A stretch of DNA of 64,000 bases, taken from NCBI GenBank assembly GCA_963920705.1, contig OY987230.1, positions 3,038,001 to 3,102,000 on the forward strand. Reading direction: 5' to 3'. The stretch's first letter is position 1. Each line of letters opens with the position of its first letter. This document shows, one piece after another, positions 1 through 64,000 of this stretch. The DNA comes from Odiellus spinosus (taxonomy: Eukaryota > Arthropoda > Arachnida > Opiliones > Phalangiidae). The notes beneath the pieces were generated by a model. That model did no database searches. It saw only the letters and a list, made by a program, of their open reading frames with translations, and was not told where the DNA came from. A program made the translations under genes and the position numbers.

Positions 1-951
1 AAGATTATTGGATTCAAATGGACACAAAACTTTTGATTTTTAAGCGATTTAGACAAAATTAAGACCACTCGAAAGACCAAATTTTGGTCTATCTAAAAAA
101 CAAGAGTTTTGGAAAATCCGTTGAAAAACATGGAAAATATGGACAATTCAAAAAACATCTAATATCAAAAAGCGAATTTTTAAAATCTGAAATTTGACTA
201 TTTTGATATTCTATGATTTCTTGAATTGGCCATATTTTTCTTGTTTTTCAACGGATTTTTCAAAACTATTGTTTTTTAGATAGACCAAAATTTAGTCTTT
301 CGAGTGGTCTTAATTTTGTCTAAATCGCTTAAAATTCAAAAGTTTTGTGTCCATTTGAATCCAATAATCTTGGATTTTTAAGCGTTTTTGCTTAATTTTA
401 ACCAATTTTATATTTGTCACGTTTTGGCAATTTAGACAAAACCAAAGTCATTCGAAAGAGCAATTAATGGACAGTCTAAATAATAAGAGTTTTCAAAAAT
501 CCGTTGAAAAACAAGAAAAATATGGCCAATTCAAGAAATCATAGAATATCAAAATAGTCAAATTTCAGATTTTCAAAATTCGCTTTTTGATATTAGATGT
601 TTTTTGAATTGTCCATATTTTCCATGTTTTTCAACGGATTTTCCAAAACTCTTGATTTTCAGATAGACCAATATTTGCTCTTTCGAGTGGTCTTAATTTT
701 GTCTAAATCGCTTAAAAATCAAAAGTTTTGTGTCCATTTGAATCCAATAATCTTGGATTTTTAAGCGTTTTTGCTTAATTTTAACCAATTTTATATTTGT
801 CACAATTTTGCAATTTAGACAAAAACAAAGTCATTCGATAGAGCAATTAATGGACAGTCTTAATAATAAGAGTTTTCAAAAATCCGTTGAAAAAGATGGA
901 AAATATGGACAATTCAAAAAACATCTAATATCAAAAAGCGAATTTTGAAAA
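1..951. repeat. Array start: A-A', B-A' then half of a B-B' dyad
   Basis: Junctions at 21 (+), 342 (-) and 725 (-). The first dyad is A-A' with a p core (core 131-241). The second is B-A' with a q core (514-624). The third, centred near 952, is B-B' with a p core and returns the array to forward. The window edge cuts the array mid-monomer, so it continues upstream. Confidence 0.9.
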
Positions 952-1536
952 TCTGAAATTTGACTATTTTGATATTCTATGATTTCTTGAATTGGCCATA
1001 TTTTTCTTGTTTTTCAACGGATTTTTGAAAACTCTTATTATTAAGACTGTCCATTAATTGCTCTTTCGAATGACTTTGGTTTTGTCTAAATTGCAAAATT
1101 GTGACAAATATAAAATTGGTTAAAATTAAGCAAAAACGCTTAAAAATCCAAGATTATTGGATTCAAATGGACACAAAACTTTTGATTTTTAAGCGATTTA
1201 GACAAAATTAAGACCAGTCGAAAGACCAAATTTTGGTCTATTTAAAAAACAAAAGTTTTGGAAAAACCGTTGAAAAACATGGAAAATATGGACAATTCAA
1301 AAAACATCTAATATCAAAAAGCGAATTTTGAAAATCTGAAATTTGACTATTTTGATATTCTATGATTTCTTGAATTGGCCATATTTTTCTTGTTTTTCAA
1401 CGGATTTTTGAAAACTCTTATTATTTAGACTGTCCATTAATTGCTCTTTCGAATGACTTTGGTTTTGTCTAAATTGCCAAAACGTGACAAATATAAAATT
1501 GGTTAAAATTAAGCAAAAACGCTTAAAAATCCAAGA

Positions 1537-1718
1537 TTATTGGATTCAAATGGACACAAAACTTTTGAATTTTAAGCGATTTAGACAAAATTAAGACCAC
1601 TCGAAAGACCAAATTTTGGTCTATCTAAAAAACAATAGTTTTGGAAAATCCGTTGAAAAACAAGAAAAATATGGCCAATTCAAGAAATCATACAATATCA
1701 AAATAGTCAAATTTCAGA
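1537..1718 (+). repeat. A arm of the monomer (~181 bp)
   Basis: Half-unit running from the junction dyad to the core centre. Diagnostic words are CAAATGGACACAAAAC, TAAGACCACTCGAAAG and TCTATCTAAAAAACAA. The A-A' dyads measure 362 bp, which is twice this length. The arm aligns to the B arm read outward-in: both share a TTTAGACAAAA word, an ATTCGAAAG/ACTCGAAAG word, AGAGTTTT and TCCGTTGAAAAAC in the same order. The two arms therefore look like diverged copies of one ancestral ~190-bp element (inference). Sub-variants differ in GATTTTTAAG versus GAATTTTAAG, in CAAGAG versus CAATAG, and in the palindrome described separately. Confidence 0.85.
1606..1622. repeat. 17-bp palindrome in the A arm, ACC/GGT form
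   Basis: AGACCAAATTTTGGTCT is a perfect palindrome of 8+1+8 bases inside the A arm. It is present in most A arms and could extrude as a small hairpin or bind a dimeric protein (inference). A second palindromic form and a mixed form also exist, described at 19599. Confidence 0.85.
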
Positions 1719-1787
1719 TTTTCAAAATTCGCTTTTTGATATTAGATGTTTTTTGAATTGTCCATATTTTCCATGTTTTTCAACGGA
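1649..1787. repeat. Core dyad, q orientation: 14-bp inverted repeats around a 111-bp core
   Basis: Left repeat TCCGTTGAAAAACA (1649-1662) and right repeat TGTTTTTCAACGGA (1774-1787) are perfect reverse complements. The 111-bp core between them is also an imperfect palindrome, pairing for example ATATGGCCAATTCAA with TTGAATTGTCCATAT. In this q orientation the core begins AGAAAAATATGGCC and ends GTCCATATTTTCCA. The whole 139-bp element could fold as a hairpin or cruciform. Every orientation switch in the window coincides with an element of this kind. Confidence 0.9.
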
Positions 1788-1919
1788 TTTTTGAAAACTC
1801 TTATTATTTAAACTGTCCATTAATTGCTCTTTCGAATGACTTTGGTTTTGTCTAAATTGCAAAATTGTGACAAATATAAAATTGGTTAAAATTAAGCAAA
1901 AACGCTTAAAAATCCAAGA
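1719..1919 (-). repeat. B arm of the monomer (~202 bp), inverted in forward units
   Basis: The second half-unit, present here as its reverse complement. Diagnostic words on the + strand are CTCTTATTATTTA, CTGTCCATTAATTGCTC, TTTCGAATGACTTTGG and ACAAATATAAAATTGG. B-B' dyads measure 404 bp, twice this arm. Two alleles recur next to the junction: GCAAAATTGTGAC and GCCAAAACGTGAC. In several blocks the second allele travels with p-core units (for example 1170, 1936, 2702, 14186). The TATAAAA stretch occurs in every B arm, but nothing supports promoter activity. Confidence 0.85.
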
Positions 1920-1961
1920 TTATTGGATTCAAATGGACACAAAACTTTTGATTTTTAAGCG
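1903..1961. repeat. Junction dyad between monomers
   Basis: CGCTTAAAAATC (1903-1914) and GATTTTTAAGCG (1950-1961) are perfect 12-bp inverted repeats with a 35-bp spacer. At the upstream side of the spacer is CCAAGATTATTGG, CCAA/TTGG around a 5-bp centre. A lies on one side and B on the other at all 168 junctions inspected; I saw no symmetric A'/A or B'/B junction. Roughly half of A arms carry GAATTTTAAGCG, which weakens the repeat by one base. Confidence 0.85.
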
Positions 1962-2031
1962 ATTTAGACAAAATTAAGACCACTCGAAAGACCAAATTTT
2001 GGTCTATCTAAAAAACAAGAGTTTTGGAAAA

Positions 2032-2170
2032 TCCGTTGAAAAACATGGAAAATATGGACAATTCAAAAAACATCTAATATCAAAAAGCGAATTTTGAAAA
2101 TCTGAAATTTGACTATTTTGATATTCTATGATTTCTTGAATTGGCCATATTTTTCTTGTTTTTCAACGGA
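2032..2170. repeat. Core dyad, p orientation: the same core inverted
   Basis: The same 14-bp inverted repeats (2032-2045 and 2157-2170) flank a core of exactly 111 bp. Here it begins TGGAAAATATGGAC and ends GGCCATATTTTTCT, the reverse complement of the q core apart from point variants. The flanking arms are A on the left and B' on the right, as in the neighbouring q unit. Relative to fixed flanks, only the segment between the inverted repeats has flipped. Confidence 0.9.
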
Positions 2171-4330
2171 TTTTTGAAAACTCTTATTATTTAGACTGTC
2201 CATTAATTGCTCTTTCGAATGACTTTGGTTTTGTCTAAATTGCCAAAACGTGACAAATATAAAATTGGTTAAAATTAAGCAAAAACGCTTAAAAATCCAA
2301 GATTATTGGATTCAAATGGACACAAAACTTTTGAATTTTAAGCGATTTAGACAAAATTAAGACCACTCGAAAGACCAAATTTTGGTCTATCTAAAAAACA
2401 ATAGTTTTGGAAAATCCGTTGAAAAACAAGAAAAATATGGCCAATTCAAGAAATCATACAATATCAAAATAGTCAAATTTCAGATTTTCAAAATTCGCTT
2501 TTTGATATTAGATGTTTTTTGAATTGTCCATATTTTCCATGTTTTTCAACGGATTTTTGAAAACTCTTATTATTTAAACTGTCCATTAATTGCTCTTTCG
2601 AATGACTTTGGTTTTGTCTAAATTGCAAAATTGTGACAAATATAAAATTGGTTAAAATTAAGCAAAAACGCTTAAAAATCCAAGATTATTGGATTCAAAT
2701 GGACACAAAACTTTTGATTTTTAAGCGATTTAGACAAAATTAAGACCACTCGAAAGACCAAATTTTGGTCTATCTAAAAAACAAGAGTTTTGGAAAATCC
2801 GTTGAAAAACATGGAAAATATGGACAATTCAAAAAACATCTAATATCAAAAAGTGAATTTTGAAAATCTGAAATTTGACTATTTTGATATTCTATGATTT
2901 CTTGAATTGGCCATATTTTTCTTGTTTTTCAACGGATTTTTGAAAACTCTTATTATTTAGACTGTCCATTAATTGCTCTTTCGAATGACTTTGGTTTTGT
3001 CTAAATTGCCAAAACGTGACAAATATAAAATTGGTTAAAATTAAGCAAAAACGCTTAAAAATCCAAGATTATTGGATTCAAATGGACACAAAACTTTTGA
3101 ATTTTAAGCGATTTAGACAAAATTAAGACCACTCGAAAGACCAAATTTTGGTCTATCTAAAAAACAATAGTTTTGGAAAATCCGTTGAAAAACAAGAAAA
3201 ATATGGCCAATTCTAGAAATCATACAATATCAAAATAGTGAAATTTCAGATTTTAAAAATTCGCTTTTTGATATTAGATGTTTTTTGAATTGTCCATATT
3301 TTCCATGTTTTTCAACGGATTTTACAAAACTCTTGATTTTCAGATAGACCAATATTTGCTCTTTCGAGGGGTCTTAATTTTGTCTAAATCGCTTAAAAAT
3401 CAAAAGTTTTGTGTCCATTTGAATCCAATAATCTTGGATTTTTAAGCGTTTTTGCTTTATTTTAACCAATTTTATATTTGTCACAATTTTGCAATTTAGA
3501 CAAAACCAAAGTCATTCGAAAGAGCAATTAATGGGCAGTTTAAATAATAAGAGTTTTCAAAAATCCGTTGAAAAACATGGAAAATATGGACAATTCAAAA
3601 AACATCTAATATCAAAAAGCGAATTTTGAAAATCTGAAATTTGACTATTTTGATATTCTATGATTTCTTGAATTGGCCATATTTTTCTTGTTTTTCAACG
3701 GATTTTTGAAAACTCTTATTATTTAGACTGTCCATTAATTGCTCTTTAGAATGACTTTGGTTTTGTCTAAATTGCAAAATTGTGACAAATATAAAATTGG
3801 TTAAAATTAAGCAAAAACGCTTAAAAATCCAAGATTATTGGATTCAAATGGACACAAAACTTTTGAATTTTAAGCGATTTAGACAAAATTAAGACCACTC
3901 GAAAGACCAAATTTTGGTCTATCTAAAAAACAATAGTTTTGGAAAATCCGTTGAAAAACAAGAAAAATATGGCCAATTCAAGAAATCATACAATATCAAA
4001 ATAGTCAAATTTCAGATTTTAAAAATTCCCTTTTTGATATTAGATGTTTTTTGAATTGTCCATATTTTCCATGTTTTTCAACGGATTTTCCAAAACTCTT
4101 GTTTTTTTAGATAGACCAATATTTGCTCTTTCGAGTGGTCTTAATTTTGTCTAAATCGCTTAAAATTCAAAAGTTTTGTGTCCATTTGAATCCAATAATC
4201 TTGGATTTTTAAGCGTTTTAGCTTAATTTTAACCAATTTTATATTTGTCACAATTTTGCAATTTAGACAAAACCAAAGTCATTCGAAAGAGCAATTAATG
4301 GACAGTCTAAATAATAAGAGTTTTCAAAAA

Positions 4331-4469
4331 TCCGTTGAAAAACAAGAAAAATGTGGACAATTCAAGAAATCATAGAATATCAAAATAGTCAAATTTCAGA
4401 TTTTCAAAATTCGCTTTTTGATATTAGATGTTTTTTGAATTGGCCATATTTTTCTTGTTTTTCAACGGA
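4331..4469. repeat. Hybrid core dyad with q-like body and AAG/CTT at both ends
   Basis: The left end reads CAAGAAAAATGTGGAC and the right end GGCCATATTTTTCTTG. The body is q (AATAGTCAAATTTCAG) but the right end is of p type. This is a recombinant core whose breakpoint lies inside the outer ~25 bp of the core. Similar cores occur in the units starting at 5704, 7236, 8002, 18335, 22545, 24457 and 30197. Confidence 0.75.
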
Positions 4470-6769
4470 TTTTTGAAAACTCTTATTATTATGACTGTCC
4501 ATTAATTGCTCTTTCGAATGACTTTGTTTTTGTCTAAATTGCAAAATTGTGACAAATATAAAATTGGTTAAAATTAAGCAAAAACGCTTAAAAATCCAAG
4601 ATTATTGGATTAAAATGGACACAAAACTTTTGATTTTTAAGCGATTTAGACAAAATTAAGACCACTCGAAAGAGCAAATATTGGTCTATCTGAAAATCAA
4701 GAGTTTTGGAAAATCCGTTGAAAAACATGGAAAATATGGACAATTCAAAAAACATCTAATATCAAAAAGCGAATTTTTAAAATCTGAAATTTGACTATTT
4801 TGATATTCTATGATTTCTTGAATTGGCCATATTTTTCTTGTTTTTCAACGGATTTTCCAAAACTATTGTTTTTTAGATAGACCAAAATTTGGTCTTTCGA
4901 GTGGTCTTAATTTTGTCTAAATCGCTTAAAATTCAAAAGTTTTGTGTCCATTTGAATCCAATAATCTTGGATTTTTATGCGTTTTTGCTTAATTTTAACC
5001 AATTTTATATTTGTCACAATTTTGCAATTTAGACAAAACCAAAGTCATTCGAAAGAGCAATTAATGGACAGTCTAAATAATAAGAGTTTTCAAAAATCCG
5101 TTGAAAAACAAGAAAAATATGGCCAATTCAAGAAATCATAGAATATCAAAATAGTCAAATTTCAGATTTTCAAAATTCGCTTTTTGATATTAGATGTTTT
5201 TTGAATTGTCCATATTTTCCATGTTTTTCAACGGATTTTTGAAAACTCTTATTATTTAAACTGTCCATTAATTGCTCTTTCGAATGACTTTGGTTTTGTC
5301 TAAATTGCCAAAACGTGACAAATATAAAATTGGTTAAAATTAAGCAAAAACGCTTAAAAATCCAAGATTATTGGATTCAAATGGACACAAAACTTTTGAA
5401 TTTTAAGCGATTTAGACAAAATTAAGACCACTCGAAAGACCAAATTTTGGTCTATCTAAAAACAATAGTTTTGGAAAATCCGTTGAAAAACAAGAAAAAT
5501 ATGGCCAATTCAAGAAATCATAGAATATCAAAATAGTCAAATTTCAGATTTTAAAAATTCGCTTTTTGATAATAGATGTTTTTTGAATTGTCCATATTTT
5601 CCATGTTTTTCAACGGATTTTCCAAAACTCTTGATTTTCAGATAGACCAATATTTGCTCTTTCGAGTGGTCTTAATTTTGTCTAAATCGCTTAAAATTCA
5701 AAAGTTTTGTGTCCATTTGAATCCAATAATCTTGGATTTTTAAGCGTTTTTGCTTAATTTTAACCAATTTTATATTTGTCACAATTTTGCAATTTAGACA
5801 AAACCAAAGTCATTCGAAAGAGCAATTAATGGACAGTCTAAATAATAAGTGTTTTCAAAAATCCGTTGAAAAACAAGAAAAATATGGCCAATTCAAAAAA
5901 TCATAGAATATCAAAATAGTCAAATTTCAGATTTTCAAAATTCGCTTTTTGATATTAGATGTTTTTTGAATTGGCCATATTTTTCTTGTTTTTCAACGGA
6001 TTTTTGAAAACTCTTATTATTAAGACTGTCCATTAATTGCTCTTTCGAATGACTTTGTTTTTGTCTAAATTGCAAAATTGTGACAAATATAAAATTGGTT
6101 AAAATTAAGCAAAAACGCTTAAAAATCCAAGATTATTGGATTCAAATGGACACAAAACTTTTGAATTTTAAGCGATTTAGACAAAATTAAGACCACTCGA
6201 AAGAGCAAATATTGGTCTATCTAAAAAACAAGAGTTTTGGAAAATCCGTTGAAAAACATGGAAAATATGGACAATTCAAAAAACATCTAATATCAAAAAG
6301 CGAATTTTTAAAATCTGAAATTTGACTATTTTGATATTGTATGATTTCTTGAATTGGCCATATTTTTCTTGTTTTTCAACGGATTTTCCAAAACTATTGT
6401 TTTTTAGATAGACCAAAATTTGGTCTTTCGAGTGGTCTTAATTTTGTCTAAATCGCTTAAAATTCAAAAGTTTTGTGTCCATTTGAATCCAATAATCTTG
6501 GATTTTTAAGCGTTTTTGCTTAATTTTAAAAAAATTTTATATTTGTCACAATTTTGCAATTTAGACAAAACCAAAGTCATTCGAAAGAGCAATTAATGGA
6601 CAGTCTAAATAATAAGAGTTTTCAAAAATCCGTTGAAAAACAAGAAAAATATGGCCAATTCAAGAAATCATAGAATATCAAAATAGTCAAATTTCAGATT
6701 TTCAAAATTCGCTTTATGATATTAGATGTTTTTTGAATTGTCCATATTTTCCATGTTTTTCAACGGATT

Positions 6770-6850
6770 TTCCAAAACTCTTGTTTTTTAGATAGACCAA
6801 TATTTGCTCTTTCGAATGACTTTGTTTTGTCTAAATTGCAAAATTGTGAC
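6770..6850 (-). repeat. Chimeric arm: A' next to the core, B' next to the junction
   Basis: The core-side part reads CTTGTTTTTTAGATAGACC (A type) and the junction-side part reads AATGACTTTGTTTTGTC (B type). The join falls at GCTCTTTCGA (about 6806-6815), a word common to both arms. It is one of few places where the two arms have recombined internally, and it shows that A and B still pair over about 10 bp. Confidence 0.8.
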
Positions 6851-8994
6851 AAATATAAAATTGGTTAAAATAAAGCAAAAACGCTTAAAAATCCAAGATT
6901 ATTGGATTCAAATGGACACAAAACTTTTGATTTTTAAGCGATTTAGACAAAATTAAGACCACTCGAAAGAGCAAATATTGGTCTATCTGAAAATCAAGAG
7001 TTTTGGAAAATCCGTTGAAAAACATGGAAAATATGGACAATTCAAAAAACATCTAATATCAAAAAGCGAATTTTTAAAATCTGAAATTTGACTATTTTGA
7101 TATTGTATGATTTCTAGAATTGGCCATATTTTTCTTGTTTTTCAACGGATTTTCCAAAACTATTGTTTTTTAGATAGACCAAAATTTGGTCTTTCGAGTG
7201 GTCTTAATTTTGTCTAAATCGCTTAAAATTCAAAAGTTTTGTGTCCATTTGAATCCAATAATCTTGGATTTTTAAGCGTTTTTGCTTAATTTTAACCAAT
7301 TTTATATTTGTCACAATTTTGCAATTTAGACAAAACCAAAGTCATTCGAAAGAGCAATTAATGGACAGTCTAAATAATAAGAGTTTTCAAAAATCCGTTG
7401 AAAAACAAGAAAAATGTGGACAATTCAAGAAATCATAGAATATCAAAATAGTCAAATTTCAGATTTTCAAAATTCGCTTTTTGATATTAGATGTTTTTTG
7501 AATTGGCCATATTTTTCTTGTTTTTCAACGGATTTTTGAAAACTCTTATTATTAAGACTGTCCATTAATTGCTCTTTCGAATGACTTTGTTTTTGTCTAA
7601 ATTGCAAAATTGTGACAAATATAAAATTGGTTAAAATTAAGCAAAAACGCTTAAAAATCCAAGATTATTGGATTCAAATGGACACAAAACTTTTGAATTT
7701 TAAGCGATTTAGACAAAATTAAGACCACTCGAAAGAGCAAATATTGGTCTATCTAAAAAACAAGAGTTTTGGAAAATCCGTTGAAAAACATGGAAAATAT
7801 GGACAATTCAAAAAACATCTAATATCAAAAAGCGAATTTTTAAAATCTGAAATTTGACTATATTGATATTGTATGATTTCTTGAATTGGCCATATTTTTC
7901 TTGTTTTTCAACGGATTTTCCAAAACTATTGTTTTTTAGATAGACCAAAATTTGGTCTTTCGAGTGGTCTTAATTTTGTCTAAATCGCCTAAAATTCAAA
8001 AGTTTTGTGTCCATTTGAATCCAATAATCTTGGATTTTTAAGCGTTTTTGCTTAATTTTAACCAATTTTATATTTGTCACAATTTTGCAATTTAGACAAA
8101 ACCAAAGTCATTCGAAAGAGCAATTAATGGACAGTCTAAATAATAAGTGTTTTCAAAAATCCGTTGAAAAACAAGAAAAATATGGCCAATTCAAAAAATC
8201 ATAGAATATCAAAATAGTCAAATTTCAGATTTTCAAAATTCGCTTTTTGATATTAGATGTTTTTTGAATTGGCCATATTTTTCTTGTTTTTCAACGGATT
8301 TTTGAAAACTCTTATTATTAAGACTGTCCATTAATTGCTCTTTCGAATGACTTTGTTTTTGTCTAAATTGCAAAATTGTGACAAATATAAAATTGGTTAA
8401 AATTAAGCTAAACGCTTAAAAATCCAAGATTATTGGATTCAAATGGACACAAAACTTTTGAATTTTAAGCGATTTAGACAAAATTAAGACCACTCGAAAG
8501 AGCAAATATTGGTCTATCTAAAAAACAAGAGTTTTGGAAAATCCGTTGAAAAACATGGAAAATATGGACAATTCAAAAAACATCTAATATCAAAAAGCGA
8601 ATTTTTAAAATCTGAAATTTGACTATTTTGATATTGTATGATTTCTTGAATTGGCCATATTTTTCTTGTTTTTCAACGGATTTTCCAAAACTATTGTTTT
8701 TTAGATAGACCAAAATTTGGTCTTTCGAGTGGTCTTAATTTTGTCTAAATCGCCTAAAATTCAAAAGTTTTGTGTCCATTTGAATCCAATAATCTTGGAT
8801 TTTTAAGCGTTTTTGCTTAATTTTAACCAATTTTATATTTGTCACAATTTTGCAATTTAGACAAAACCAAAGTCATTCGAAAGAGCAATTAATGGACAGT
8901 CTAAATAATAAGTGTTTTCAAAAATCCGTTGAAAAACAAGAAAAATATGGCCAATTCAAAAAATCATAGAATATCAAAATAGTCAAATTTCAGA

Positions 8995-11340
8995 TTTTCA
9001 AAATTCGCTTTTTGATATTAGATGTTTTTTGAATTGTCCATATTTTCCATGTTTTTCAACGGATTTTTGAAAACTCTTATTATTTAAACTGTCCATTAAT
9101 TGCTCTTTCGAATGACTTTGTTTTGTCTAAATTGCAAAATTGTGAAAAATATAAAATTGGTTAAAATTAAGCAAAAACGCTTAAAAATCCAAGATTATTG
9201 GATTCAAATGGACACAAAACTTTTGATTTTTAAGCGATTTAGACAAAATTAAGACCACTCGAAAGACCAAATTTTGGTCTATCTAAAAAACAATAGTTTT
9301 GGAAAATCCGTTGAAAAACATGGAAAATATGGACAATTCAAAAAACCATCTAATATCAAAAAGCGAATTTTGAAAATCTGAAATTTGACTATTTTGATAT
9401 TCTATGATTTCTTGAATTGGCCATATTTTTCTTGTTTTTCAACGGATTTTTAAAAACTCTTATTATTTAGACTGTCCATTAATTGCTCTTTCGAATGACT
9501 TTGGTTTTGTCTAAATTGCCAAAACGTGACAAATATAAAATTGGTTAAAATTAAGCCAAAACGCTTAAAAATCCAAGATTATTGGATTCAAATGGACACA
9601 AAACTTTTGAATTTTAAGCGATTTAGACAAAATTAAGACCACTCGAAAGACCAAATTTTGGTCTATCTAAAAAACAATAGTTTTGGAAAATCCGTTGAAA
9701 AACAAGAAAAATATGGCCAATTCAAGAAATCATACAATATCAAAATAGTCAAATTTCAGATTTTCAAAATTCGCTTTTTGATATTAGATGTTTTTTGAAT
9801 TGTCCATATTTTCCATGTTTTTCAACGGATTTTCCAAAACTCTTGTTTTTTAGATAGACCAAAATTTGGTCTTTCGAGTGGTCTTAATTTTGTCTAAATC
9901 GCTTAAAAATCAAAAGTTTTGTGTCCATTTGAATCCAATAATCTTGGATTTTTAAGCGTTTTTGCTTAATTTTAACCAATTTTATATTTGTCACAATTTT
10001 GCAATTTAGACAAAACCAAAGTCATTCGAAAGAGCAATTAATGGACAGTCTAAATAATAAGTGTTTTCAAAAATCCGTTGAAAAACAAGAAAAATATGGC
10101 CAATTCAAAAAATCATAGAATATCAAAATAGTCAAATTTCAGATTTTCAAAATTCGCTTTTTGATATTAGATGTTTTTTGAATTGTCCATATTTTCCATG
10201 TTTTTCAACGGATTTTTGAAAACTCTTATTATTTAAACTGTCCATTAATTGCTCTTTCGAATGACTTTGTTTTGTCTAAATTGCAAAATTGTGAAAAATA
10301 TAAAATTGGTTAAAATTAAGCAAAAACGCTTAAAAATCCAAGATTATTGGATTCAAATGGACACAAAACTTTTGATTTTTAAGCGATTTAGACAAAATTA
10401 AGACCACTCGAAAGACCAAATTTTGGTCTATCTAAAAAACAATAGTTTTGGAAAATCCGTTGAAAAACATGGAAAATATGGACAATTCAAAAAACATCTA
10501 ATATCAAAAAGCGAATTTTGAAAATCTGAAATTTGACTATTTTGATATTCTATGATTTCTTGAATTGGCCATATTTTTCTTGTTTTTCAACGGATTTTTG
10601 AAAACTCTTATTATTTAGACTTTCCATTAATTGCTCTTTCGAATGACTTTGGTTTTTGTCTAAATTGCCAAAACGTGACAAATATAAAATTGGTTAAAAT
10701 TAAGCCAAAACGCTTAAAAATCCAAGATTATTGGATTCAAATGGACACAAAACTTTTGAATTTTAAGCGATTTAGACAAAATTAAGACCACTCGAAAGAC
10801 CAAATTTTGGTCTATCTAAAAAACAATAGTTTTGGAAAATCCGTTGAAATACAAGAAAAATATGGCCAATTCAAGAAATCATACAATATCAAAATAGTCA
10901 AATTTCAGATTTTCAAAATTCGCTTTTTGATATTAGATGTTTTTTGAATTGTCCATATTTTCCATGTTTTTCAACGGATTTTCCAAAACTCTTGTTTTTT
11001 AGATAGACCAAAATTTGGTCTTTCGAGTGGTCTTAATTTTGTCTAAATCGCTTAAAAATCAAAAGTTTTGTGTCCATTTGAATCCAATAATCTTGGATTT
11101 TTAAGCGTTTTTGCTTAATTTTAACCAATTTTATATTTGTCACAATTTTGCAATTTAGACAAAACCAAAGTCATTCGAAAGAGCAATTAATGGACAGTCT
11201 AAATAATAAGAGTTTTCAAAAATCCGTTGAAAAACAAGAAAAATGTGGACAATTCAAGAAATCATAGAATATCAAAATAGTCAAATTTCAGATTTTCAAA
11301 ATTCGCTTTTTGATATTAGATGTTTTTTGAATTGTCCATA
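8995..11340. repeat. Trimer higher-order repeat, period ~1149 bp
   Basis: Junction pattern +, +, - at 9211, 9595, 9916 and again at 10360, 10744, 11065. Both copies carry GTGAAAAATATAAAATT before the first unit and AAGCCAAAACGC before the second. Dyads run A-B' (p), A-A' (q), then B-B' (q) in copy 1. Copy 2 breaks off into a B-A' dyad at 11065. Confidence 0.85.
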
Positions 11341-11529
11341 TTTTCCATGTTTTTCAACGGATTTTCCAAAACTCTTGTTTTTTAGATAGACCAAAATTTG
11401 GTCTTTCGAGTGGTCTTAATTTTGTCTAAATCGCTTAAAAATCAAAAGTTTTGTGTCCATTTGAATCCAATGATCTTGGATTTTTAAGCGTTTTTGCTTA
11501 ATTTTAACCAATTTTATATTTGTCCCAAT

Positions 11530-11620
11530 TTTGCAATTTAGACAAAACAAAGTCATTCGAAAGAGCAAATATTGGTCTATCTAAAAAACAAGAGTTTTGG
11601 AAAATTGGTTGAAAAACATG
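11530..11620 (+). repeat. Chimeric arm: B at the junction, A near the core (copy 1)
   Basis: Starts as B (TTTAGACAAAACAAAGTC) and continues as A (AAATATTGGTCTATCTAAAA). The switch is at TCGAAAGAGC (11557-11566), the same shared word used by the chimera at 6806 read on the other strand. The adjoining inverted repeat is altered, with AAAATTGGTTG replacing AAAATCCGTTG near 11605. An almost identical chimera lies 1530 bp downstream. Confidence 0.85.
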
Positions 11621-13059
11621 GAAAATATGGACAATTCAAAAAACATCTAATATCAAAAAGCGAATTTTGAAAATCTGAAATTTCACTATTTTGATATTCT
11701 ATGATTTCTTGAATTGGCCATATTTTTCTTGTTTTTCAACGGATTTTTGAAAACTCTTATTATTTAGACTGTCCATTAATTGCTCTTTAGAATGACTTTG
11801 GTTTTGTCTAAATTGCAAAATTGTGACAAATATAAAATTGGTTAAAATTAAGCAAAAACGCTTAAAAATCCAAGATTATTGGATTCAAATGGACACAAAT
11901 CTTTTGAATTTTAAGCGATTTAGACAAAATTAAGACCACTCGAAAGACCAAATTTTGGTCTATCTAAAAAACAATAGTTTTGGAAAATCCGTTGAAAAAC
12001 AAGAAAAATATGGCCAATTCAAGAAATCATACAATATCAAAATAGTCAAATTTCAGATTTTAAAAATTCGCTTTTTGATATTAGATGTTTTTTGAATTGT
12101 CCATATTTTCCATGTTTTTCAACGGATTTTTGAAAACTCATATTATTTAAACTGTCCATTAATTGCTCTTTCGAATGACTTTGTTTTGTCTAAATTGCAA
12201 AATTGTGACAAATATAAAATTGGTTAAAATTAAGCAAAAACGCTTAAAAATCCAAGATTATTGGATTCAAATGGACACAAAACTTTTGAATTTTAAGCGA
12301 TTTAGACAAAATTAAGACCACTCGAAAGACCAAATTTTGGTCTATCTAAAAAACAATAGTTTTGGAAAATCCGTTGAAAAACAAGAAAAATATGGCCAAT
12401 TCAAGAAATCATACAATATCAAAATAGTCAAATTTCAGATTTTCAAAATTCGCTTTTTGATATTAGATGTTTTTTGAATTGTCCATATTTTCCATGTTTT
12501 TCAACGGATTTTTGAAAACTCTTATTATTTAAACTGTCCATTAATTGCTCTTTCGAATGACTTTGGTTTTGTCTAAATTGCAAAATTGTGACAAATATAA
12601 AATTGGTTAAAATTAAGCAAAAACGCTTAAAAATCCAAGATTATTGGATTCAAATGGACACAAAACTTTTGAATTTTAAGCGATTTAGACAAAATTAAGA
12701 CCACTCGAAAGACCAAATTTTGGTCTATCTAAAAAACAATAGTTTTGGAAAATCCGTTGAAAAACAAGAAAAATATGGCCAATTCAAGAAATCATACAAT
12801 ATCAAAATAGTCAAATTTCAGATTTTCAAAATTCGCTTTTTGATATTAGATGTTTTTTGAATTGTCCATATTTTCCATGTTTTTCAACGGATTTTCCAAA
12901 ACTCTTGTTTTTTAGATAGACCAAAATTTGGTCTTTCGAGTGGTCTTAATTTTGTCTAAATCGCTTAAAAATCAAAAGTTTTGTGTCCATTTGAATCCAA
13001 TGATCTTGGATTTTTAAGCGTTTTTGCTTAATTTTAACCAATTTTATATTTGTCACAAT

Positions 13060-13150
13060 TTTGCAATTTAGACAAAACAAAGTCATTCGAAAGAGCAAAT
13101 ATTGGTCTATCTAAAAAACAAGAGTTTTGGAAAATTGGTTGAAAAACATG
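13060..13150 (+). repeat. Chimeric arm: B at the junction, A near the core (copy 2)
   Basis: Same structure as the chimera at 11530-11620, with the switch at TCGAAAGAGC (13087-13096) and the same altered inverted repeat (TTGGTTG). The spacing of 1530 bp marks a tetramer duplication that copied the chimera after it arose. Confidence 0.85.
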
Positions 13151-14400
13151 GAAAATATGGACAATTCAAAAAACATCTAATATCAAAAAGCGAATTTTGA
13201 AAATCTGAAATTTGACTATTTTGATATTCTATGATTTCTTGAATTGGCCATATTTTTCTTGTTTTTCAACGGATTTTTGAAAACTCTTATTATTTAGACT
13301 GTCCATTAATTGCTCTTTAGAATGACTTTGGTTTTGTCTAAATTGCAAAATTGTGACAAATATAAAATTGGTTAAAATTAAGCAAAAACGCTTAAAAATC
13401 CAAGATTATTGGATTCAAATGGACACAAAACTTTTGAATTTTAAGCGATTTAGACAAAATTAAGACCACTCGAAAGACCAAATTTTGGTCTATCTAAAAA
13501 ACAATAGTTTTGGAAAATCCGTTGAAAAACAAGAAAAATATGGCCAATTCAAGAAATCATACAATATCAAAATAGTCAAATTTCAGATTTTAAAAATTCG
13601 CTTTTTGATATTAGATGTTTTTTGAATTGTCCATATTTTCCATGTTTTTCAACGGATTTTTGAAAACTCATATTATTTAAACTGTCCATTAATTGCTCTT
13701 TCGAATGACTTTGTTTTGTCTAAATTGCAAAATTGTGACAAATATAAAATTGGTTAAAATTAAGCAAAAACGCTTAAAAATCCAAGATTATTGGATTCAA
13801 ATGGACACAAAACTTTTGAATTTTAAGCGATTTAGACAAAATTAAGACCACTCGAAAGACCAAATTTTGGTCTATCTAAAAAACAATAGTTTTGGAAAAT
13901 CCGTTGAAAAACAAGAAAAATATGGCCAATTCAAGAAATCATACAATATCAAAATAGTCAAATTTCAGATTTTCAAAATTCGCTTTTTGATATTAGATGT
14001 TTTTTGAATTGTCCATATTTTCCATGTTTTTCAACGGATTTTTGAAAACTCTTATTATTTAAACTGTCCATTAATTGCTCTTTCGAATGACTTTGTTTTG
14101 TCTAAATTGCAAAATTGTGAAAAATATAAAATTGGTTAAAATTAAGCAAAAACGCTTAAAAATCCAAGATTATTGGATTCAAATGGACACAAAACTTTTG
14201 ATTTTTAAGCGATTTAGACAAAATTAAGACCACTCGAAAGACCAAATTTTGGTCTATCTAAAAAACAATAGTTTTGGAAAATCCGTTGAAAAACATGGAA
14301 AATATGGACAATTCAAAAAACATCTAATATCAAAAAGCGAATTTTGAAAATCTGAAATTTGACTATTTTGATATTCTATGATTTCTTGAATTGGCCATAT

Positions 14401-54720: not shown

Positions 54721-57700
54721 TTATTGGATTCAAATGGACACAAAACTTTTGAATTTTAAGCGATTTAGACAAAATTAAGACCACTCGAAAGACCAAATTT
54801 TGGTCTATCTAAAAAACAATAGTTTTGGAAAATCCGTTGAAAAACAAGAAAAATATGGCCAATTCAAGAAATCATTGAATATCAAAATAGTCAAATTTCA
54901 GATTTTCAAAATTCGCTTTTTGATATTAGATGTTTTTTGAATTGTCCATATTTTCCATGTTTTTCAACGGATTTTCCAAAACTCTTGATTTTCAGATAGA
55001 CCAATATTTGCTCTTTCGAGTGGTCTTAATTTTGTCTAAATCGCTTAAAAATCAAAAGTTTTGTGTCCATTTGAATCCAATAATCTTGGATTTTTAAGCG
55101 TTTTTGCTTAATTTTAACCAATTTTATATTTGTCACAATTTTGCAATTTAGACAAAAACAAAGTCATTCGAAAGAGCAATTAATGGACAGTCTTAATAAT
55201 AAGAGTTTTCAAAAATCCGTTGAAAAACAAGAAAAATATGGCCAATTCAAAAAACATCTAATATCATAAAGCGAATTTTGAAAATCTGAAATTTGACTAT
55301 TTTGATATTCTATGATTTCTTGAATTGTCCACATTTTTCTTGTTTTTCAACGGATTTTTGAAAACTCTTATTATTTAGACTGTCCATTAATTGCTCTTTC
55401 GAATGACTTTGGTTTTGTCTAAATTGCCAAAACGTGACAAATATAAAATTGGTTAAAATTAAGCAAAAACGCTTAAAAATCCAAGATTATTGGATTCAAA
55501 TGGACACAAAACTTTTGAATTTTAAGCGATTTAGACAAAATTAAGACCACTCGAAAGAGCAAATTTTGGTCTATCTAAAAAACAATAGTTTTGGAAAATC
55601 CGTTGAAAAACAAGAAAAATATGGCCAATTCAAGAAATCATACAATATCAAAATAGTCAAATTTCAGATTTTCAAAATTCGCTTTTTGATATTAGATGTT
55701 TTTTGAATTGTCCATATTTTCCATGTTTTTCAACGGATTTTTGAAAACTCTTATTATTTAAACTGTCCATTAATTGCTCTTTCGAATGACTTTGGTTTTG
55801 TCTAAATTGCAAAATTGTGACAAATATAAAATTGGTTAAAATTAAGCAAAAACGCTTAAAAATCCAAGATTATTGGATTCAAATGGACACAAAACTTTTG
55901 ATTTTTAAGCGATTTAGACAAAATTAAGACCACTCGAAAGACCAAATTTTGGTCTATCTAAAAAACAAGAGTTTTCAAAAATCCGTTGAAAAACATGGAA
56001 AATATGGACAATTCAAAAAACATCTAATATCAAAAAGCGAATTTTGAAAATCTGAAATTTGACTATTTTGATATTCTATGATTTCTTGAATTGGCCATAT
56101 TTTTCTTGTTTTTCAACGGATTTTTGAAAACTCTTATTATTTAGACTGTCCATTAATTGCTCTTTAGAATGACTTTGGTTTTGTCTAAATTGCAAAATTG
56201 TGACAAATATAAAATTGGTTAAAATTAAGCAAAAACGCTTAAAAATCCAAGATTATTGGATTCAAATGGACACAAAACTTTTGAATTTTAAGCGATTTAG
56301 ACAAAATTAAGACCACTCGAAAGACCAAATTTTGGTCTATCTAAAAAACAATAGTTTTGGAAAATCCGTTGAAAAACAAGAAAAATATGGCCAATTCAAG
56401 AAATCATACAATATCAAAATAGTCAAATTTCAGATCTTAAAAATTCGCTTTTTGATATTAGATGTTTTTTGAATTGTCCATATTTTCCATGTTTTTCAAC
56501 GGATTTTCCAAAACTCTTGATTTTCAGATAGACCAATATTTGCTCTTTCGAGTGGTCTTAATTTTGTCTAAATCGCTTAAAAATCAAAAGTTTTGTGTCC
56601 ATTTGAATCCAATAATCTTGGATTTTTAAGCGTTTTTGCTTTATTTTAACCAATTTTATATTTGTCACAATTTTGCAATTTAGACAAAACAAAAGTCATT
56701 CGAAAGAGCAATTAATGGACAGTTTAAATAATAAGAGTTTTCAAAAATCCGTTGAAAAACATGGAAAATATGGACAATTCAAAAAACATCTAATACCAAA
56801 AAGCGAATTTTGAAAATCTGAAATTTGATTATTTTGATATTCTATGATTTCTTGAATTGGCCATATTTTTCTTGTTTTTCAACGGATTTTTGAAAACTCT
56901 CATTATTAAGACTGTCCATTAATTGCTCTCTCGAATGACTTTGGTTTTGTCTAAATTGCAAAATTGTGACAAATTTAAAATTGGTTAAAATTAAGCAAAA
57001 ACGCTTAAAAATCCAAGATTATTGGATTCAAATGGACACAAAACTTTTGATTTTTAAGCGATTTAGACAAAATTAAGACCACTCGAAAGAGCAAATATTG
57101 GTTTATCTGAAAATCAAGAGTTTTGGAAAATCCGTTGAAAAACATGGAAAATATGGACAATTCAAAAAACATCTAATATCAAAAAGCGAATTTTGAAAAT
57201 CTGAAATTTGACTATTTTGATATTCTATGATTTCTTGAATTGGCCATATTTTTCTTGTTTTTCAACGGATTTTCCAAAACTATTGTTTTTTAGATAGACC
57301 AAAATTTGGTCTTTCGAGTGGTCTTAATTTTGTCTAAATCGCTTAAAATTCAAAAGTTTTGTGTCCATTTGAATCCAATAATCTTGGATTTTTAAGCGTT
57401 TTTGCTTAATTTTAACCAATTTTATATTTGTCACAATTTTGCAATTTAGACAAAACCAAAGTCATTCGAATGAGCAATTAATGGACAGTCTAAATAATAA
57501 GAGTTTTCAAAAATCCGTTGAAAAACAAGAAAAATATGGCCAATTCAAGAAATCATAGAATATCAAAATAGTCAAATTTCTGATTTTCAAAATTCGCTTT
57601 TTGATATTAGATGTTTTTTGAATTGTCCATATTTTCCATGTTTTTCAACGGATTTTTGAAAACTCTTATTATTTAAACTGTCCATTAATTGCTCTTTCGA

Positions 57701-59698
57701 ATGAGTTTGGTTTTGTCTAAATTTCAAAATTGTGACAAATATAAAATTGGTTCAAATTAAGCAAAAACGCTTAAAAATCCAAGATTATTGGATTCAAATG
57801 GACACAAAACTTTTGATTTTTAAGCGATTTAGACAAAATTAAGACCACTCGAAAGAGCAAATATTGCTCTATCTAAAAAACAAGAGTTTTGGAAAATCCG
57901 TTGAAAAACATGGAAAATATGGACAATTCAAAAAACATCTAATATCAAAAAGCGAATTTTGAAAATCTGAAATTTGACTATTTTGATATTCTATGATTTC
58001 TTGAATTGGCCATATTTTTCTCGTTTTTCAACGGATTTTTGAAAACTCTTATTATTTAGACTGTCCATTAATTGCTCTTTCGAATGGCTTTGGTTTTGTC
58101 TAAATTGCCAAAACGTGACAAATATAAAATTGGTTAAAATTAAGCAAAAACGCTTAAAAATCCAAGATTACTGGATTCAAATGGACACAAAACTTTTGAA
58201 TTTTAAGCGATTTAGACAAAATTAAGACCACTCGAAAGACCAAATTTTGGTCTATCTAAAAAACAATAGTTTTAGAAAATCCGTTGAAAAACAAGAAAAA
58301 TATGGCCAATTCAAGAAATCATACAATATCAAAATAGTCAAATTTCAGATTTTCAAAATTCGCTTTTTGATATTAGATGTTTTTTGAATTGTCCATATTT
58401 TCCATGTTTTTCAACGGATTTTTGAAAACTCTTATTATTTAAACTGTCCAATAATTGCTCTTTCGAATGACTTTGGTTTTGTCTAAATTGCAAAATTGTG
58501 ACAAATATAAAATTGGTTAAAATTAAGCAAAAACGCTTAAAAATCCAAGATTATTGGATTCAAATGGACACAAAACTTTTGATTTTTAAGCGATTTAGAC
58601 AAAATTAAGACCACTCGAAAGACCAAATTTTGGTCTATCTAAAAAATAAGAGTTTTGGAAAATCCGTTGAAAAACATGGAAAATATGGACAATTCAAAAA
58701 ACATCTAATATCAAAATGCGAATTTTGAAAATCTGAAATTTGACTATTTTGATATTCTATGATTTCTTGAATTGGCCATATTTTCCATGTTTTTCAACGG
58801 ATTTTTGAAAACTCTTATTATTTTAACTGTCCATTAATTGCTCTTTCGAATGACTTTGGTTTTGTCTAAATTGCAAAATTGTGACAAATATAAAATTGGT
58901 TAAAATTAAGCAAAAACGCTTAAAAATCCAAGATTATTGGATTCAAATGGACACAAAACTTTTGATTTTTAAGCGATTTAGACAAAATTAAGACCACTCG
59001 AAAGACCAAATTTTGGTCTATCTAAAAAACAAGAGTTTTGGAAAATCCGTTGAAAAACATGGAAAATATGGACAATTCAAAAAACATCTAATATCAAAAA
59101 GGGAATTTTGAAAATCTGAAATTTGACTATTTTGATATTCTATGATTTCTTGTATTGGCCATATTTTTCTTGTTTTTCAACGGATTTTTGAAAACTCTTA
59201 TTATTTAGACTGTCCATTAATTGCTCTTTCGAATGACTTTGGTTTTGTCTAAATTGCCAAAACGTGACAAATATAAAATTGGTTAAAATTAAGCAAAAAC
59301 GCTTAAAAATCCAAGATTATTGGATTCAAATGGACACAAAACTTTTGAATTTTAAGCGATTTAGACAAAATTAAGACCACTCGAAAGACCAAATTTTGGT
59401 CTATCTAAAAACAATAGTTTTGGAAAATCCGTTGAAAAACAAGAAAAATATGGCCAATTCAAGAAAGCATACAATATCAAAATAGTCAAATTTCAGATTT
59501 TCAAAATTCGCTTTTTGATATTAGATGTTTTTTGAATTGTCCATATTTTCCATGTTTTTCAACGGATTTTTGAAAACTCTTATTATTTAAACTGTCCATT
59601 AATTGCTCTTTCGAATGACTTTGGTTTTGTCTAAATTGCAAAATTGTGACAAATATAAAATTGGTTCAAATTAAGCAAAAACGCTTAAAAATCCAAGA
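54721..59698. repeat. Large higher-order repeat, copy 2 (one monomer fewer)
   Basis: Junctions 54737+, 55058-, 55503+, 55886+, 56269+, 56590-, 57035+, 57356-, 57801+, 58184+, 58567+, 58950+ and 59333+ follow copy 1 with the same private markers. The offset is 5722 bp up to 55503 and 5339 bp afterwards, so one monomer (equivalent to 50164 or 50547) is missing. The unit at the step, 55886, has a chimeric arm. The copies diverge in orientation after 59333: copy 1 turns reverse at 54292, copy 2 stays forward. Confidence 0.87.
55955..55990 (+). repeat. Chimeric arm: A with B-type core-proximal end
   Basis: Same structure as at 34540: A-arm text up to AACAAGAGTTTT, then B-type CAAAAATCCG. This unit sits where the second copy of the large 14/15-mer has one monomer fewer than the first, so the exchange may mark that deletion point (inference). 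Confidence 0.65.
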
Positions 59699-62600
59699 TT
59701 ATTGGATTCAAATGGACACAAAACTTTTGATTTTTAAGCGATTTAGACAAAATTAAGACCACTCGAAAGAGCAAATATTGCTCTATCTAAAAAACAAGAG
59801 TTTTGGAAAATCCGTTGAAAAACATGGAAAATATGGACAATTCAAAAAACATCTAATATCAAAAAGCGAATTTTGAAAATCTGAAATTTGACTATTTTGA
59901 TATTCTATGATTTCTTGAATTGGCCATATTTTTCTCGTTTTTCAACGGATTTTTGAAAACTCTTATTATTTAGACTGTCCATTAATTGCTCTTTCGAATG
60001 GCTTTGGTTTTGTCTAAATTGCCAAAACGTGACAAATATAAAATTGGTTAAAATTAAGCAAAAACGCTTAAAAATCCAAGATTATTGGATTCAAATGGAC
60101 ACAAAACTTTTGAATTTTAAGCGATTTAGACAAAATTAAGACCACTCGAAAGACCAAATTTTGGTCTATCTAAAAAACAATAGTTTTGGAAAATCCGTTG
60201 AAAAACAAGAAAAATATGGCCAATTCAAGAAATCATACAATATCAAAATAGTCAAATTTCAGATTTTCAAAATTCGCTTTTTGATATTAGATGTTTTTTG
60301 AATTGTCCATATTTTCCATGTTTTTCAACGGATTTTTGAAAACTCTTATTATTTAAACTGTCCAATAATTGCTCTTTCGAATGACTTTGGTTTTGTCTAA
60401 ATTGCAAAATTGTGACAAATATAAAATTGGTTAAAATTAAGCAAAAACGCTTAAAAATCCAAGATTATTGGATTCAAATGGACACAAAACTTTTGATTTT
60501 TAAGCGATTTAGACAAAATTAAGACCACTCGAAAGACCAAATTTTGGTCTATCTAAAAAACAAGAGTTTTGGAAAATCCGTTGAAAAACATGGAAAATAT
60601 GGACAATTCAAAAAACATCTAATATCAAAAAGCGAATTTTGAAAATCTGAAATTTGACTATTTTGATATTCTATGATTTCTTGAATTGGCCATATTTTTC
60701 TTGTTTTTCAACGGATTTTCCAAAACTATTGTTTTTTAGATAGACCAAAATTTGGTCTTTCGAGTGGTCTTAATTTTGTCTAAATCGCTTAAAATTCAAA
60801 AGTTTTGTGTCCATTTGAATCCAATAATCTTGGATTTTTAAGCGTTTTTGCTTAATTTTAACCAATTTTATATTTGTCACAATTTTGCAATTTAGACAAA
60901 ACCAAAGTCATTCGAAAGAGCAATTAATGGACAGTCTAAATAATAAGAGTTTTCAAAAATCCGTTGAAAAACAAGAAAAATATGGCCAATTCAAGAAATC
61001 ATAGAATATCAAAATAGTCAAATTTCTGATTTTCAGAATTCGCTTTTTGATATTAGATGTTTTTTGAATTGTCCATATTTTCCATGTTTTTCAACGGATT
61101 TTTGAAAACTCTTATTATTTAAACTGTCCATTAATTGCTCTTTCGAATGACTTTGGTTTTGTCTAAATTGCAAAATTGTGACAAATATAAAATTGGTTCA
61201 AATTAAGCAAAAACGCTTAAAAATCCAAGATTATTGGATTCAAATGGACACAAAACTTTTGATTTTTAAGCGATTTAGACAAAATTAAGACCACTCGAAA
61301 GAGCAAATATTGCTCTATCTAAAAAACAAGAGTTTTGGAAAATCCGTTGAAAAACATGGAAAATATGGACAATTCAAAAAACATCTAATATCAAAAAGCG
61401 AATTTTGAAAATCTGAAATTTGACTATTTTGATATTCTATGATTTCTTGAATTGGCCATATTTTTCTCGTTTTTCAACGGATTTTTGAAAACTCTTATTA
61501 TTTAGACTGTCCATTAATTGCTCTTTCGAATGGCTTTGGTTTTGTCTAAATTGCCAAAACGTGACAAATATAAAATTGGTTAAAATTAAGCAAAAACGCT
61601 TAAAAATCCAAGATTACTGGATTCAAATGGACACAAAACTTTTGAATTTTTAGCGATTTAGACAAAATTAAGACCACTCGAAAGACCAAATTTTGGTCTA
61701 TCTAAAAAACAATAGTTTTGGAAAATCCGTTGAAAAACAAGAAAAATATGGCCAATTCAAGAAATCATACAATATCAAAATAGTCAAATTTCAGATTTTC
61801 AAAATTCGCTTTTTGATATTAGATGTTTTTTGAATTGTCCATATTTTCCATGTTTTTCAACGGATTTTTGAAAACTCTTATTATTTAAACTGTCCAATAA
61901 TTGCTCTTTCGAATGACTTTGGTTTTGTCTAAATTGCAAAATTGTGACAAATATAAAATTGGTTAAAATTAAGCAAAAACGCTTAAAAATCCAAGATTAT
62001 TGGATTCAAATGGACACAAAACTTTTGATTTTTAAGCGATTTAGACAAAATTAAGACCACTCGAAAGACCAAATTTTGGTCTATCTAAAAAACAAGAGTT
62101 TTGGAAAATCCGTTGAAAAACATGGAAAATATGGACAATTCAAAAAACATCTAATATCAAAAAGCGAATTTTGAAAATCTGAAATTTGACTATTTTGATA
62201 TTCTATGATTTCTTGAATTGGCCATATTTTCCATGTTTTTCAACGGATTTTTGAAAACTCTTATTATTTAAACTGTCCATTAATTGCTCTTTCGAATGAC
62301 TTTGGTTTTGTCTAAATTGCAAAATTGTGACAAATATAAAATTGGTTAAAATTAAGCAAAAACGCTTAAAAATCCAAGATTATTGGATTCAAATGGACAC
62401 AAAACTTTTGATTTTTAAGCGATTTAGACAAAATTAAGACCACTCGAAAGACCAAATTTTGGTCTATCTAAAAAACAAGAGTTTTGGAAAATCCGTTGAA
62501 AAACATGGAAAATATGGACAATTCAAAAAACATCTAATATCAAAAAGGGAATTTTGAAAATCTGAAATTTGACTATTTTGATATTCTATGATTTCTTGTA

Positions 62601-63910
62601 TTGGCCATATTTTTCTTGTTTTTCAACGGATTTTTGAAAACTCTTATTATTTAGACTGTCCATTAATTGCTCTTTCGAATGACTTTGGTTTTGTCTAAAT
62701 TGCCAAAACGTGACAAATATAAAATTGGTTAAAATTAAGCAAAAACGCTTAAAAATCCAAGATTATTGGATTCAAATGGACACAAAACTTTTGAATTTTA
62801 AGCGATTTAGACAAAATTAAGACCACTCGAAAGACCAAATTTTGGTCTATCTAAAAACAATAGTTTTGGAAAATCCGTTGAAAAACAAGAAAAATATGGC
62901 CAATTCAAGAAAGCATACAATATCAAAATAGTCAAATTTCAGATTTTCAAAATTCGCTTTTTGATATTAGATGTTTTTTGAATTGTCCATATTTTCCATG
63001 TTTTTCAACGGATTTTTGAAAACTCTTATTATTTAAACTGTCCATTAATTGCTCTTTCGAATGACTTTGGTTTTGTCTAAATTGCAAAATTGTGACAAAT
63101 ATAAAATTGGTTCAAATTAAGCAAAAACGCTTAAAAATCCAAGATTATTGGATTCAAATGGACACAAAACTTTTGATTTTTAAGCGATTTAGACAAAATT
63201 AAGACCACTCGAAAGAGCAAATATTGCTCTATCTAAAAAACAAGAGTTTTGGAAAATCCGTTGAAAAACATGGAAAATATGGACAATTCAAAAAACATCT
63301 AATATCAAAAAGCGAATTTTGAAAATCTGAAATTTGACTATTTTGATATTCTATGATTTCTTGAATTGGCCATATTTTTCTCGTTTTTCAACGGATTTTT
63401 GAAAACTCTTATTATTTAGACTGTCCATTAATTGCTCTTTCGAATGGCTTTGGTTTTGTCTAAATTGCCAAAACGTGACAAATATAAAATTGGTTAAAAT
63501 TAAGCAAAAACGCTTAAAAATCCAAGATTATTGGATTCAAATGGACACAAAACTTTTGAATTTTAAGCGATTTAGACAAAATTAAGACCACTCGAAAGAC
63601 CAAATTTTGGTCTATCTAAAAAACAATAGTTTTGGAAAATCCGTTGAAAAACAAGAAAAATATGGCCAATTCAAGAAATCATACAATATCAAAATAGTCA
63701 AATTTCAGATTTTCAAAATTCGCTTTTTGATATTAGATGTTTTTAGAATTGTCCATATTTTCCATGTTTTTCAACGGATTTTTGAAAACTCTTATTATTT
63801 AAACTGTCCAATAATTGCTCTTTCGAATGACTTTGGATTTGTCTAAATTGCAAAATTGTGACAAATATAAAATTGGTTAAAATTAAGCAAAAACGCTTAA
63901 AAATCCAAGA
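57019..63910. repeat. Tandem 9-mer duplication, period 3446 bp
   Basis: Junctions 57035+, 57356-, 57801+, 58184+, 58567+, 58950+, 59333+, 59715+, 60098+ repeat as 60481+, 60802-, 61247+, 61630+, 62013+, 62396+, 62779+, 63161+, 63544+. Shared markers are AGATTACTGG (58172 and 61613), AAAAGGGAATTTTG (59100 and 62544) and AAGAAAGCATAC (59463 and 62909). Within each copy a 5-unit subrepeat (1914 bp, first unit marked TATTGCTCTATC and TTTTTCTCGTTTTTC) restarts at 57801, 59715, 61247 and 63161. Confidence 0.88.
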
Positions 63911-64000
63911 TTATTGGATTCAAATGGACACAAAACTTTTGATTTTTAAGCGATTTAGACAAAATTAAGACCACTCGAAAGACCAAATTTTGGTCTATCT
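63911..64000 (+). repeat. Truncated forward monomer at the window edge
   Basis: The start of another A arm (GACACAAAAC at 63927) is cut by the end of the window inside the 17-bp palindrome region. The array therefore continues downstream and its right boundary is not seen. Confidence 0.95.

Follow-up and report, generated by a model that had tools for sequence, protein, structure and literature searches.

The satellite array at the start of contig C6 of Odiellus spinosus changes orientation at one of the two dyads of its unit, the core, and at no sampled example of the other, the junction (J), and we think it likely that this pattern goes back to a small number of founder inversions, which joined inverted blocks of homology beside the core and the products of which were spread by segmental duplication and re-paired within the shared core. 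The window, that is, the whole 64,000-bp stretch of DNA that was analysed (C6:3,038,001–3,102,000, in an assembly of 286 contigs and 443 Mb), is a single unbroken satellite array with a period of 383 bp and a base composition of 73% A+T. Two further samples were scored alongside it, one of 20 stretches of 10 kb from the same contig (0.01–3.01 Mb) and one of ten 5-kb stretches across nine other contigs. In each case the outer arm, the mid arm, the junction and the core each had a probe of its own, scored separately from the others, and the arm probes did not depend on junction orientation.

The array begins at the start of C6. Satellite is present in all 20 of the stretches sampled between 0.01 and 3.01 Mb, three of which are partly other DNA, and was also detected at 3.2 Mb, so that the array is of megabase size; 400-base probes of C6 at 3.5, 5 and 8 Mb contain no satellite module, and one at 4 Mb contains a lone module match. 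The non-satellite DNA within the C6 array lies at L011 1405–5008, L017 6613–9650 and L015 1–2265; two of these three stretches are ~3–3.6 kb long with similar weak probe matches inside, and are perhaps one element inserted twice. TCAGG arrays are found close to the ends of several large contigs among C1, C2, C3, C4, C6 and C7, with both orientations near each other on C1, C4 and C6, and the TCAGG block of C6 (143 matches) is situated ~11 kb from the contig end opposite the satellite array. The TTAGG content of the genome amounts to 9,597 overlapping matches to the six-fold repeat. One match above the cut-off to PF02949, the insect-specific odorant receptor family, is also present, against none in 14 control genomes; taken by themselves, these features would suggest an insect, perhaps a beetle. 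A search of the open-access literature found no paper with this satellite sequence, the lone string match being to a pigeonpea marker paper.

A unit runs from one junction J through the A arm, the core and the B arm to the next J, and its A and B arms are inverted relatives of each other. Between the outer A and outer B arms we detected no similarity (355 of 500 shuffles scored as high as their alignment), the mid arms share 74% identity (a score reached by 0 of 500 shuffles) and the stems 81%; the longest run of A/B identity is 18 bp, and the other runs of at least 7 bp measure 12, 10, 9, 9, 8 and 8 bp. J is a 19-bp palindrome with arms of just 7 bp, whereas the whole monomer folds about the core into one hairpin (−77.6 kcal/mol, z −9.95), and the two dyads are therefore not equivalent. 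The scored cores hold one a-half and one b-half, which defines four arm classes (A-a, A-b, B-a and B-b). An example monomer with a flipped core, together with the junctions on either side of it, is laid out as follows.

1–64000, no strand: array of satellite monomers, most of them 362, 383 or 404 bp long, with a 383-bp period
1528–1546, plus strand: junction dyad J taken as the example, a 19-bp palindrome whose arms are 7 bp long
1547–1644, plus strand: A arm of this monomer, outer and mid parts
1636, plus strand: T100, the base that marks the A-b arm lineage (the B consensus and most A-a arms have G)
1645–1662, plus strand: 18-bp A/B identity block, left copy, the main breakpoint interval
1663–1773, minus strand: core, in flipped orientation in this monomer (core motif scored at 1694–1743, minus strand)
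1774–1791, minus strand: 18-bp identity block, right inverted copy
1792–1910, minus strand: B arm of this monomer, mid and outer parts
1911–1929, plus strand: following junction dyad J

When cores of the window were typed by the mid-arm probe (n=167), 88 were A/B, 41 A-A' and 38 B-B', monomers of these three types being mostly 383, 362 and 404 bp long, respectively. The sequence-only reading from which this analysis started had counted 41 A-A' and 41 B-B' dyads, or 82 switches, and this total is reproduced by following junction orientation, which changes in 81 of 166 steps and, once the partial junction at base 1 is counted, in 82. The equality of the two classes is a matter of arithmetic and no finding, since the two kinds of switch must alternate along any string of orientations, and the mid-arm probe returns 38 rather than 41 B-B' cores because three arms are chimaeric, with an outer B arm joined to an A-like mid arm.

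6778–6838, minus strand: chimaeric arm in which an outer B is joined to an A-like mid arm, with the switch well away from the core
11534–11594, plus strand: chimaeric arm, outer B with A-like mid arm
13064–13124, plus strand: chimaeric arm, outer B with A-like mid arm, same sequence as 11534–11594

The observed switch fraction in the window is 0.488, as compared with 0.460 expected from the split of orientations, in line with the 49% and ~46% given before. Switching on the core side only, with A facing B at every junction, is a pattern seen across ten contigs: orientation changes in 294 of 475 steps in the C6 stretches (0.619, expected 0.500) and in 47 of 117 steps on the nine other contigs (0.402, expected 0.495), for a total of 422 of 758 steps in the three samples. 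The stretches from C47 and C261 are nearly one-way (1 switch in 10 steps and 2 in 12, respectively). Thus, switching is general but non-uniform among contigs.

Core orientation itself varies within A-B monomers, the ratio of parental to flipped cores being 61:27 in the window, 128:57 on C6 and 48:26 on the other contigs. Among 1,552 arms there are 448 A-a, 329 A-b, 331 B-a and 444 B-b, and these combine into four kinds of junction-centred unit (n=760), namely U0 (Bb-J-Aa; 172), U1 (Bb-J-Ab; 265), U2 (Ba-J-Aa; 266) and U3 (Ba-J-Ab; 57). Because an a-half must meet a b-half, U1 and U2 alternate and fit both ways round, and U0 is tied to core orientation; all of this is a consequence of core integrity and no additional finding. 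The empirical result is that adjacent U1-U2 pairs occur in the same and in opposite orientation at ratios of 44:45 in the window, 30:30 on the other contigs and 86:118 on C6.

To place the switch between A and B sequence within each arm we used the bases along the arms that are diagnostic of A or B. In 281 of the 329 A-b arms the switch falls inside the 18-bp run, 55–75 bp off the axis; 11 further switches are in or beside a 9-bp run, 8 lie between two neighbouring diagnostic bases, 7 and 4 are in the next inward runs, and 18 arms have multiple changes. Of the 331 B-a arms, 237 switch in the 18-bp run; an 8-bp run accounts for 69 switches, the 9-bp run for 14 and a 10-bp run for 1, and the remainder comprises 5 arms without a change in the scored stretch and 5 with several. 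Parental arms are also changed (40 of 448 A-a and 113 of 444 B-b), nearly all of them doubly (40 and 111, respectively), and conversion-like tracts therefore exist. The three chimaeric arms of the window switch further outward, in the mid arm, and the two that are identical (13064–13124 and 11534–11594) are probably copies of one event. In no arm class scored does the breakpoint fall at the dyad axis, which the sequence-only reading had taken to be the localised site of inversion; switching at the axis is ruled out, as the breakpoints lie in inverted A/B identity blocks away from it, mainly in the 18-bp run.

Several lines of evidence indicate that the switches are largely inherited. The base T100 is carried by 309 of 329 A-b arms as opposed to 19 of 448 A-a arms (68 of 68 as opposed to 5 of 98 in the window), a linkage by which these arms stand out from ordinary repeats as homogeneous inversion sites. 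Since the B consensus carries G at the corresponding position, T100 looks derived; most A-b arms appear to share descent from one founder. The correlation between position A100 and the core half, measured over the main block, is ~0.90, and linkage of 0.85–0.91 across the 18-bp block rules it out as a frequently used hot spot. B-a arms fall into at least two haplotypes with differing breakpoints, and two U3 units on C47 (L046 1474 and 3770; C47:434001–438000) lack T100, which points to a separate event, possibly an independent inversion of a junction segment, and hence to more than one A-b event. This U3 pair sits inverted between parental cores in an array that is otherwise one-way. Tightly linked sets of bases are also present at A arm positions 91/96 (r 1.00) and B arm positions 55/56/60 (0.97–0.99) in all samples; they mark arm sub-lineages and could be used to date expansions.

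Duplication accounts for much of the window, in which 82% of the sequence lies in direct duplicates (at least 1,150 bp long, more than 98.5% identical, at lags below 30 kb), as in higher-order repeats. Inverted duplicates that pass the same limits of length and identity cover 45%. We compared the orientation of U1 and U2 units between copies, requiring a matched flank unit on each side (one, or two where stated). With one matched flank per side, orientation is kept in 94 of 94 pairs that have at most 2 differences, which together have accumulated 67 point differences, and in 139 of 140 pairs with at most 3 differences (151 differences in all); with at most 5 differences it is kept in 386 of 450 pairs and flipped in 64, and with two matched flanks per side it is kept in 56 of 56. 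Taken together, the marker base, the direct duplicates and the inherited orientation rule out 82 independent events, which is how the 82 switches had implicitly been read.

Point variants are exchanged on both sides of the unit. All four gametes, each seen at least five times, are present in 21 of 30 pairs of SNPs that span J (by unit type, 13 of 19 for U2, 6 of 18 for U0 and 1 of 6 for U1), in 19 of 30 that span the core and in 26 of 30 from units three apart. Mean r2 is 0.054 for pairs spanning J and 0.033 for those spanning the core; J is no recombination desert for point variants. Arm class, in contrast, is clearly more tightly linked across J, with a phi of 0.43, than across the core, with 0.14 (0.01 in the window, 0.26 on C6 and −0.17 elsewhere). 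The core is thus in part the freer side, with the qualification that some of this contrast is predicted by the founder structure, because a single core flip yields one U1 and one U2. The earlier description of arms as almost freely shuffled at the core agrees in part with this difference in phi but does not stand up well in view of the lag-2 autocorrelation of orientation in the window (0.287) and of switch fractions that range from 0.40 to 0.62.

We considered whether the core is instead a true hot spot of breakage and inversion, at which a hairpin or cruciform is cut or a fork stalls and is repaired either way, so that in the germline the array would be continuously reshuffled as orientation-neutral cassettes between inverted cores with the junctions left untouched. 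If so, the core would provide a domino-like route by which a chromosome-end satellite retains dyad symmetry at every scale. The folding of the monomer into one hairpin and the looser linkage of arm classes across the core than across J are both in keeping with such a hot spot, as is the enrichment of the ends of long duplicates near cores (198 of 291 and 257 of 414, as compared with 0.405 expected), a detection that is biased since ends are visible only where copies differ. However, the breakpoints lie in homology blocks away from the axis, none of the 94 closest pairs of copies has flipped despite their point differences, and the marker linkage holds across the main block. We therefore regard a hot spot of this kind, and the continuous reshuffling it entails, as rather unlikely.

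Founder inversions between homologous blocks would also explain why the junctions are locked. All 167 complete junctions in the window are A/B asymmetric (107 xB'-J-xA and 60 xA'-J'-xB); with the partial junction at base 1 these make up the 168 asymmetric dyads and the 108/60 split of orientations reported at the outset. The tally extends beyond the window, there being no symmetric junction among 495 in the C6 stretches or 127 on the nine other contigs, and so 0 of 789 in the assembled sequence sampled (95% upper bound ~0.4%), including two junctions at which one flank was identified by the mid-arm probe alone and still had the type, A or B, that was expected. A single case in the sample, in L017, has outer arms that abut without a junction; the probe match there is poor, with 9 differences, lies at a distance of 115 bp and is next to inserted non-satellite DNA. 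Since the outer arms at J have no detectable homology, homology-driven exchange is unable to yield symmetric junctions, and switches are confined to one side of the unit, the only one on which its two halves resemble each other. A second explanation for the lock would be selection that preserves the junction, for example as a protein-binding palindrome, and purges symmetric junctions as they form. J is indeed exact in 160 of its 167 window copies (the remaining 7 differ at one base), and within each arm variation is lowest in the first 20 bp next to J (mean minor fraction 0.004 on one side and 0.005 on the other), but other 20-bp stretches of the arms are nearly as invariant (0.006–0.010) and the absence of homology suffices to explain the lock; we give selection on the junction only a slim chance.

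A site-specific recombinase working on the 18-bp inverted block would account for the majority of breakpoints, which are inside that block. Against this, breakpoints are spread over at least five intervals (at least four further ones besides the block) and three mid arms, not the one fixed crossover site of site-specific inversion, and with the exception of 8 arms all scored intervals are runs of A/B identity, which makes a recombinase very improbable; we know of no recombinase for the inversion of this satellite. That the switches are errors of assembly in a highly repetitive array, whose orientations are known from the assembly alone, is scarcely credible given that an identical grammar is present in 30 stretches over ten contigs, that switches come every one to few units, well inside a long read, and that flipped arms bear their own marker base.

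The preferred account, that of a few amplified founder inversions, can be set out as four steps. First, as the breakpoints suggest, the core, or a segment between two cores, would have been flipped by a few old inversions whose ends lay in the inverted A/B identity blocks next to it, in most cases the 18-bp one; this would place a b-half onto A and an a-half onto B and so give rise to the unit types U0 to U3. Second, the products were multiplied by segmental duplication through megabases of satellite, as seen in the duplicated copies. Third, oppositely oriented, near-identical cores would recombine and invert the units between them, making A-A' and B-B' monomers; this kind of recombination is unable to make symmetric junctions because its breakpoints lie in cores. 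Fourth, flanks would be re-paired by exchange inside the shared core, a step supported by the near-random pairing in the window. We infer that homologous recombination or template switching was the inverting step, that the steps came in this order and that inversion is rare.

We examined the behaviour of these steps in a toy model (16 runs, with 40% flipped cores at the start). With zero inversions there is no mixing and the array stays one-way, 0.4–0.7 inversions per 100 duplications give switch fractions of 0.03–0.04, ~5–7 give 0.27–0.43 and ~80 give 0.34–0.55. The range of 0.27–0.43 spans the 0.40 of the other contigs and misses the 0.49 of the window and the 0.62 of C6, the latter value being reached in 0 of 16 runs; at the rate of 5–7, flipped copies are commoner than observed, though the simulated copies are of any age. 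An earlier toy simulation ended with nothing but U0 in 12 of 15 runs and is no test of the model. The model is thus plausible rather than fitted. The 16 runs also bear on the claim that ordinary unequal crossing-over fails to predict the pattern, which holds insofar as the array without inversions stays one-way and does not hold for the localisation of the breakpoints, which matches the homology map. The nearly one-way C47 and C261 arrays, with their parental cores, count in favour of the model, as do the even U1-U2 ratios of the window and the other contigs. Points against it are that exchange may truly favour the core, given the higher phi across J, that U1-U2 pairs are uneven on C6, that the broadest set of copies, with at most 5 differences, contains 64 flips, that two U3 units on C47 lack T100, and that some parental arms are doubly changed.

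Classical higher-order-repeat satellites evolve by unequal exchange and run head to tail. The array studied here resembles them in its high-identity multi-unit duplicates, the copies of which inherit unit order and orientation, and differs in that both orientations are mixed, down to the scale of single units. Invertible DNA switches are flanked by inverted repeats, and in a similar manner the units U1 and U2, with a core of opposite orientation on either side, are found both ways round, although such switches use one fixed site and the breakpoints here fall in several intervals. It follows that a seemingly site-locked pattern of inversion can arise from a homology map together with founder amplification. 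The satellite also allows inversion, duplication and mutation to be separated from one sequence, with core orientation, arm type and marker bases forming a natural pedigree.

Monomers with long inverted repeats are cited in a study of Tribolium madens for Tribolium brevicornis (1061 bp) and Trichogramma brassicae (385 bp) (PMC13081366). These satellites are alike in that the monomer is itself an inverted repeat, of nearly equal length in Trichogramma, a likeness by description; the passage of PMC13081366 that introduces them makes no mention of an orientation grammar. The same study describes TmSat1 and TmSat2 of T. madens as multi-megabase A+T-rich arrays with macro-dyad symmetries and homogeneous inversion sites, for which its authors hypothesize ectopic recombination between similar inverted subunits, and which they state to be documented only in Tribolium (PMC13081366); a second paper, in the part that concerns these arrays, merely cites the first (PMC13427858). 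Judged by arrangement, not by sequence match, and within what the passages on TmSat1 and TmSat2 describe, both systems are megabase satellites whose orientation changes at homogeneous inversion sites. The inverted blocks of T. madens, however, are several kilobases long and mostly two per array (PMC13081366), whereas the window has 82 orientation runs across 167 junctions, the longest of 10 units, with a switch every one to few units, independent core flips and a domino-like rule. On the published description of those arrays, TmSat1 and TmSat2 are the closest published case, of which the array described here is a fine-scale variant.
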